A stretch of DNA of 37,214 nt from a bacterium. GTDB taxonomy: Bacteria; UBP15; UBA6099; JAJRTR01. Under the pieces are notes generated by a model. The model was given only the letters and a program-made list of their open reading frames with translations. It had not been told where the DNA came from and searched no databases. The stretch lies in contig JAJRTR010000133.1 in assembly GCA_024278215.1 (NCBI GenBank), positions 1-37,214 on the forward strand, in the 5' to 3' direction. Each line of letters starts with the position of its first letter. Position 1 is the stretch's first letter. Position numbers and translations under genes: made by a program. Of the stretch, positions 27,103 through 28,486 are shown piece after piece.

Positions 27103-28434
27103 TCACTCTGCAACTTTCTGTATCATCGCCTGATATCCATAGTGGGCGATAAGGTTGTCGAGAATAACCATGGCCATGACACTTTCCGCAACCGGCCATA
27201 TACGACCGACAATTGTGGGATCACGGCGCGTGATGGCCGAAAGCTGCGTGTTTTCCATCGTGTACTTATCCACAGTGTTTTGTTCTCTGTCGATAGTAGG
27301 CGTCGGCTTGACAGTGATGCGAGCGATAACCGGCTGACCTGTGGAAAGACCGCCTGTGATGCCGCCGGCGTTGTTCGAGTCGAACCTGATTTTGCCGTCT
27401 GCCGCGCTCATTCTGTCGTTGGAATCGTAACCTGTCATGTCTTTGACAGCCATGCCCGCGCCGACCTCGACTGCCTTCACGGCGCCAATGCTCATCAGTA
27501 TGCCTAGGTCGCCGTCGAGCTTGTGAAAAACGGGTTCACCTACTCCGGCAGGCAATCCGAGCGCCACAACTTCCACCTGTCCGCCTGACGAATCGCCTGT
27601 CTTTGTTATTTTATTGCATTCTTCCAGCATTTCATCCGCAATATCGGCATCAGGGCAGTTGATAACATGATGGACACCGTATTTATCCCTGATCACCGCC
27701 GGGTCGACCTCTCTCGCTTTTGCTCTGATGTCCTGTATTTCGTTTTCGATCTGTGCGAAGATCGCCATCTTTTCGAGGAAACGCTGTTCAGTGTTGATGC
27801 GCTCTTTTACGTATATTTCCTGGTAGAACGGGTCGTAGTCGCAACGATATTGTTTATACTGCTGATAAGATTCCCATGCTTTTTCCAGGTCTACGCTGTC
27901 GACTCGCACACCCGCAGCTTCCTTGATATAGGAGAAAACGCGGATGCCGCATTTTCCGAGAATGCGGCGGGCGACATGGCCCGCTGCGACAATAGTCGCA
28001 GTGTAGCGACCGCTGAAGAAGCCCGCGCCGATAGCGTCGTCGTCCGGGCCGTATTTGATAAAGGACGCATACGAAGCGTGGCCGGGGCGTGGTGTGCGGT
28101 TTGTATCCTGGTACTGTTTTATGTGAATAAAATGACGGTCCAGATTCGGTATCAACACGGTAAACGGCGTACCGTTGGTGTGTCCTTTGTTGTCTGCGCC
28201 CTCAATAGTATCCGCAGCATTTATCCCCGCATATATCACTGGCAGGTCTGGCTCGACGCGCGGTGATGAAAGCTCATCAGCACCGGGCTTGCGCAGCAGA
28301 AGGTCGGAATACAGTTCCTGCTCCGTTATCTTCATGCCGGGCGGCACTCCCTGTATCGTCGTATTCAGTCCGTCCTGGTAGGAGCCGCCGCCTACGGTCA
28401 CCTGAAATATTCGTCCGAAATGACATCCTATCAT
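27103..28434 (-). CDS. aroC: Divergent chorismate synthase homologue
   Basis: 443 residues, versus about 360 for typical AroC. Family regions in order: GRIFQVTVGGGSYQDG (7-22), IQGVPPGM, TPRPGHASYASFIKYG (114-129), GAGFFSGRYTATIVAAG (136-152), VVALGLPAGVGEPVF (289-303), SNNAGGITGGLSTGQ (353-367) and KPTPTI. Chorismate synthase makes chorismate from EPSP with reduced FMN. Odd points: the GESHG motif is GGSYQDG, so its conserved His is Tyr19; GRHDPC is TRRDPT; and about 55 extra residues with a coiled-coil look (YQQYKQYRCDYDP... to REVDPAV, about 188-245) are inserted. His119 is kept. AGGAG lies 10 nt before the ATG. It may be a divergent true AroC or a paralogue with another reaction; no other shikimate gene is near. 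Confidence 0.8.
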   Translation of the reverse strand: MIGCHFGRIFQVTVGGGSYQDGLNTTIQGVPPGMKITEQELYSDLLLRKPGADELSSPRVEPDLPVIYAGINAADTIEGADNKGHTNGTPFTVLIPNLDRHFIHIKQYQDTNRTPRPGHASYASFIKYGPDDDAIGAGFFSGRYTATIVAAGHVARRILGKCGIRVFSYIKEAAGVRVDSVDLEKAWESYQQYKQYRCDYDPFYQEIYVKERINTEQRFLEKMAIFAQIENEIQDIRAKAREVDPAVIRDKYGVHHVINCPDADIADEMLEECNKITKTGDSSGGQVEVVALGLPAGVGEPVFHKLDGDLGILMSIGAVKAVEVGAGMAVKDMTGYDSNDRMSAADGKIRFDSNNAGGITGGLSTGQPVIARITVKPTPTIDREQNTVDKYTMENTQLSAITRRDPTIVGRIWPVAESVMAMVILDNLIAHYGYQAMIQKVAE

Positions 28435-28486
28435 GTCTTTGTGTCTCCTGTTCTCTGTTTTAACCCGGATTTCTCCCGATTTTTAA

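Follow-up and report, generated by a model that had tools for sequence, protein, structure and literature searches.

Our analysis indicates that the divergent aroC gene in the window (the whole stretch of 37,214 nucleotides that was analysed) very probably encodes the organism's only chorismate synthase, a functional FMN-dependent enzyme whose proton-donor site has been rebuilt, and that this form replaces ordinary AroC in these lineages. The GGSYQ form, called here after the motif that stands where other AroC proteins carry GESHG, appears to be a genuine and widespread variant of a known enzyme and not the bearer of a new reaction. It has gone unremarked in the open-access literature that we searched, in which we found no description of a His-less chorismate synthase or of a chorismate synthase from Phycisphaerae. 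A large clade without the catalytic His (His17 in N. crassa), evidently with this protein as its only chorismate synthase, provides a natural test of the need for that residue, and a GESHG signature would miss genuine AroC enzymes. The pathway is a target of antimicrobials and herbicides, and it is useful to know which of the active-site residues are replaceable.

The protein scores 301.7 bits against a cut-off of 27 in a profile search with PF01264, and lies just under the cut-off of the stricter equivalog NF003793 (310.4 versus 321). The GESHG N-terminal signature with its catalytic His is not present, the protein reading GGSYQ at this place, and we therefore file it as an AroC variant and not as an ordinary member. 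A metallophosphatase gene lies upstream of aroC, with fmt and rsmB downstream on the same strand as aroC; Rfam and tRNA searches of the aroC region returned nothing relevant. The features on which the argument draws are as follows.

27103..28434, minus strand: divergent aroC (chorismate synthase), 443 amino acids plus stop; PF01264 E=6e-90, TIGR00033 305.8 bits against a cut-off of 212.2; sole family member in the genome.
28445..28449, minus strand: likely ribosome-binding site AGGAG, upstream of the ATG at 28434, read from the sequence.
28375..28389, minus strand: GGSYQ, residues 16-20, replacing GESHG, with Tyr19 (28378-28380) at the His17 site; from the alignment of 79 family members with 27 canonical AroC proteins.
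28123..28134, minus strand: HFIH, residues 101-104, at the 3-residue insertion before RPGHA; H101 and H104 are invariant in the family and absent from canonical AroC.
28072..28089, minus strand: RPGHAS, residues 116-121; His119 (N. crassa His106) retained, Ser in place of an invariant Asp; from the alignment.
27997..28029, minus strand: GAGFFSGRYTA, residues 136-146; Ser141 and Arg143 retained, R125 and E130 (L010 numbering) lost; from the alignment.
27679..27885, minus strand: region with a large helical insertion, residues 184-252, conserved in the family; from family comparison and the model.
27214..27231, minus strand: TRRDPT, residues 402-407; Arg403 and catalytic Asp405 (N. crassa Asp367) retained; from the alignment, the role of the Asp from PMC3509576.

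The 443-residue reading frame bears out what an earlier note had read from the DNA, namely VTVGGGSYQDG in place of TTFGESHG with Tyr19 at the position of the catalytic His, and RPGHAS, GAGFFSGRYTA, SNNAGGITGG, LPAGVGEPVF and TRRDPT are likewise all present as described there. In an alignment of 79 family sequences (that of the window included) with 27 canonical AroC proteins, Tyr occupies the His17 site in every family member and His in every canonical one. Canonical AroC has 53 columns that are at least 90% conserved, of which the family retains 44 and changes nine; six of the nine sit in three active-site motifs (E17G, H19Y, G20Q, D108S, R125I and E130Y, numbered after the canonical AroC L010), and these are the departures that matter. 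The other motif differences are real without all being remarkable: the His of GRHDPC, which is not conserved among ordinary AroC proteins either, is Ser/Thr in type II AroC (ERSDVC), and within the change of RSSARET to FFSGRYTA the FSGR itself is also found in the otherwise canonical AroC L024. Nor are the roughly 55 additional residues a single insertion, as had been supposed; there are three: one of about 10 residues (about residues 72-82), one of 3 residues in the loop that precedes RPGHA, and one helical block lying in the region of about residues 184-252. Ser18, Arg48, Arg116, His119, Ser141, Arg143, Arg403 and Asp405 are retained by the family. His119 in RPxHA (the N. crassa His106 site), Asp405 in RxD (the Asp367 site) and the motif residues Ser18 and Ser141 are each present in 79 of 79 family sequences, and no family member departs from Arg at columns 48 and 403. 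Ser18 and Ser141 correspond to the conserved catalytic Ser residues of these motifs, Ser16 and Ser127 in N. crassa.

The AlphaFold model of the protein has the AroC fold (pTM 0.85), and its 28 PDB matches at E<=0.001 are all chorismate synthases. pLDDT falls below 50 at residues 51-62, 107-127 and 135-140, which include active-site loops, so that the model, as a prediction, supports the fold while its active-site geometry is below usable confidence.

Published work assigns protonation of flavin N1 to the His106 position, deprotonation of N5 to Asp367 and protonation of the leaving phosphate to His17 (PMC3509576, PMC2386126, PMC7144000). A His17 equivalent is reported in mono- and bifunctional enzymes of all known species and lies within the family signature (PMC2386126), which counts against our reading. 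Putting Ala in place of the other invariant His costs the N. crassa enzyme 20-fold, and mutating the Asp 300-600-fold (PMC3509576); a 2025 paper leaves it undecided whether His or Arg donates the proton to the phosphate (PMC12697075). These findings leave room for an enzyme without His17. We propose that the GGSYQ-form enzyme would, like other AroC enzymes, bind reduced FMN and EPSP and form chorismate by 1,4-trans elimination of phosphate, using the retained flavin-protonating His119, the motif residues Ser18 and Ser141 and the N5 base Asp405. The site of the leaving-group acid would have been rebuilt, with Tyr in place of the phosphate-protonating His and the nearby E, D, R and E replaced together. 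As to the donor itself, we infer that the phosphate proton may come from Tyr19, from His101 or His104 of the inserted HFIH loop, or from a retained Arg. We are evenly divided on whether the clade as a whole uses a different acid for the leaving phosphate (Tyr19 or a His of HFIH), in which case nature would have solved the acid step in a second way. A possible but doubtful variant of the proposed reading, differing from it in the acid alone, is that the His is simply dispensable, Tyr19 having no special role and the enzyme being slower or relying on Arg or water as acid. The published doubt over His17 or Arg (PMC12697075) and the invariance of Arg at columns 48 and 403 would fit such an enzyme, but Tyr19 is itself invariant and changed together with five neighbours, which indicates a specific role.

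The setting in which the gene is found speaks to its function. A profile search found no further PF01264 member in the organism's own genome (4.55-Mb, 95%-complete, 207 contigs) and no canonical aroC in six genomes of the same order, which answers the earlier note's question about a second, canonical copy in the negative. The own genome has one match to PF01761 (the aroB family) and one to PF01959, two members of the EPSP-synthase family that a sequence reading and an AroA search resolve into one AroA and one MurA, two chorismate-binding enzymes of the trpE/pabB type, and one prephenate dehydratase (pheA). Chorismate is evidently both made and used there, given these aroA, aroB, pheA and trpE/pabB-type genes, and the search of this genome yielded no candidate for the chorismate step other than the GGSYQ-form gene. 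All the same-order genomes have TrpE/PabB-type and PheA genes, and most of them also aroA and aroB; one of them (G001) carries two GGSYQ-form copies and another (G005) only a 3' fragment. The earlier note had reasoned that a complete pathway with this form alone, together with complementation, would mark it as a normal divergent AroC, and the genomic half of that picture is what we see, with no canonical aroC and the tested pathway genes present.

The early shikimate pathway looks unusual in some of these genomes. PF01959 (archaeal-type DHQ synthase II) genes occur in bacterial genomes at G000:C98:45747-46748, G066:C1:2257331-2258320 and G098:C1:5541384-5542373; G000 and G098 also have an ordinary PF01761 enzyme, G066 has PF01959 only, and G106 has neither.

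Beyond the order, a scan of 84,980 species genomes returned 196 relatives, of which the 80 kept show 68-81% identity across their whole length. Their record titles name Planctomycetota/Phycisphaerae/Sedimentisphaerales, Fibrobacterota, Omnitrophota, Ratteibacteria, Auribacterota, Spirochaetales and others, though nearly all are titled MAGs and single phylum labels are possibly mis-binned. At a strict threshold the form occurs in 9 of 386 genomes of a broad sample, six of the nine belonging to the window's own order. No relative was found in the viral contigs searched, and plasmid matches were all below 60% identity, the best being annotated as ordinary aroC. In 42 of 50 carrier genomes, which belong to several phyla and have three single-contig chromosomes among them, the GGSYQ form is the only AroC homologue; two of the remainder have two GGSYQ copies, one an unresolved second fragment, and five an added canonical copy. 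The two forms exclude each other in one small phylum, where G170 and G307 have the GGSYQ form only and G436 canonical type II only.

Some carriers show further arrangements. Two GGSYQ-form copies were seen in G001 (on C33 and C107), G082 and G099, those of G001 being distinct types that are each found singly in related genomes. The MAGs that combine GGSYQ and canonical AroC (G081, G091, G094, G097 and G108) may reflect contamination or real coexistence. One locus, L076, was considered as an interrupted aroC gene, a reading that we rejected because the gene is intact and a further, partial 3' end lies beyond it. Two small genes, HicA/HicB-like by eye, stand between this intact GGSYQ-form aroC and the partial 3' end (L076:7336-7930), a layout resembling the outcome of an insertion that duplicates the 3' end of aroC.

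Linkage to aroA points in the same direction as gene content. In 22 of the 50 carriers an aroA gene precedes aroC at a distance of at most 300 bp and in the same orientation, and in 29 the two are within 7 kb of each other. When 77 neighbouring genes, of which 61 were immediately upstream and 16 downstream, were scanned against Pfam, 29 matched EPSP synthase, and every other non-repeat family occurred three times at most. Two observations count against our reading: in the window's own genome aroA is on a different contig from aroC, and aroA was not detected in some carrier MAGs (G002, G003, G004 and G060). The linkage holds even with a divergent kind of AroA, 33-38% identical to that of the window's genome. 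Such an AroA stands beside a GGSYQ-form aroC whose product is still near 70% identical in G062, G071, G072, G073, G088 and G102. Across phyla, AroC identity to the window protein is about 70%, whereas AroA between the same genomes is mostly 48-59% identical and lower for the divergent kind; the higher identity of AroC would fit strong constraint, horizontal transfer, or both.

In a quick tree, the phylogeny for which the earlier note had called, all GGSYQ-type homologues form a single clade with an SH-aLRT support of 100, which falls on the type I side. The stem of the family measures 2.88 changes per column and its internal branches are short, the exact sister group being obscured by meeting long branches. 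We suggest that the family arose once, passed through a long stem and then remained highly conserved, substituting for ordinary AroC in several phyla.

That the protein might instead be a paralogue, having lost activity on EPSP and taken up a different flavin-dependent reaction, was one of the two options raised at the outset, and we consider it very unlikely. The loss of the invariant active-site His and of nearby charged residues, the gain of a conserved insertion and the long stem could be read in this way, and the canonical AroC that coexists in five of the 50 genomes counts against our explanation and fits a paralogue there, although all five are MAGs. However, canonical AroC is missing from the 42 carriers with a single homologue and from every same-order genome, enzymes that use chorismate were found in each of the same-order genomes tested, aroA linkage is operon-like, and the active-site Arg, Ser, His and Asp are all retained. 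The option of adapted catalysis is thus the one that gains ground, while the new-reaction paralogue is unsupported: as sole AroC homologue in a genome with the pathway present, and as a neighbour of aroA, the protein is best regarded as a divergent chorismate synthase. An artefact of sequencing or assembly, or a pseudogene, is a negligible prospect, as nothing speaks for it beyond a fragmented draft genome in 207 contigs, while the frame of 443 codons is open and strongly conserved and 78 relatives from other assemblies, differing from one another throughout, share the same Tyr, an agreement that rules out chance or error. We infer that the enzyme works as a chorismate synthase, a strong claim drawn from family membership, residue conservation, gene content and aroA linkage, each of which was observed directly. 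It would still be an unusual one, since an active-site His held to be invariant is replaced across the whole clade.

Comparison with known systems places the protein closest to type I chorismate synthase (AroC; PF01264 / TIGR00033; 4LJ2, 5Z9A, 7RCA and 1R52), with which it shares the fold and full-length homology, along with the RPGHA His, the motif Ser, the Arg of SxR, the Asp of RxDP and a place beside aroA. The family departs from type I AroC where GESHG, RPGHAD and R-S-S-A-R-E become GGSYQ, RPGHAS and I/F-F-S-G-R-Y, and in the three added insertions that bring the protein to 443 residues against about 360 and leave it under the NF003793 cut-off. Type II chorismate synthase (ERSDVC; L022, L025-L031 and L139) belongs to the same superfamily and likewise departs from GRHDP; unlike the GGSYQ family it keeps GESHG or GDSHG, and it forms a separate branch in the tree.
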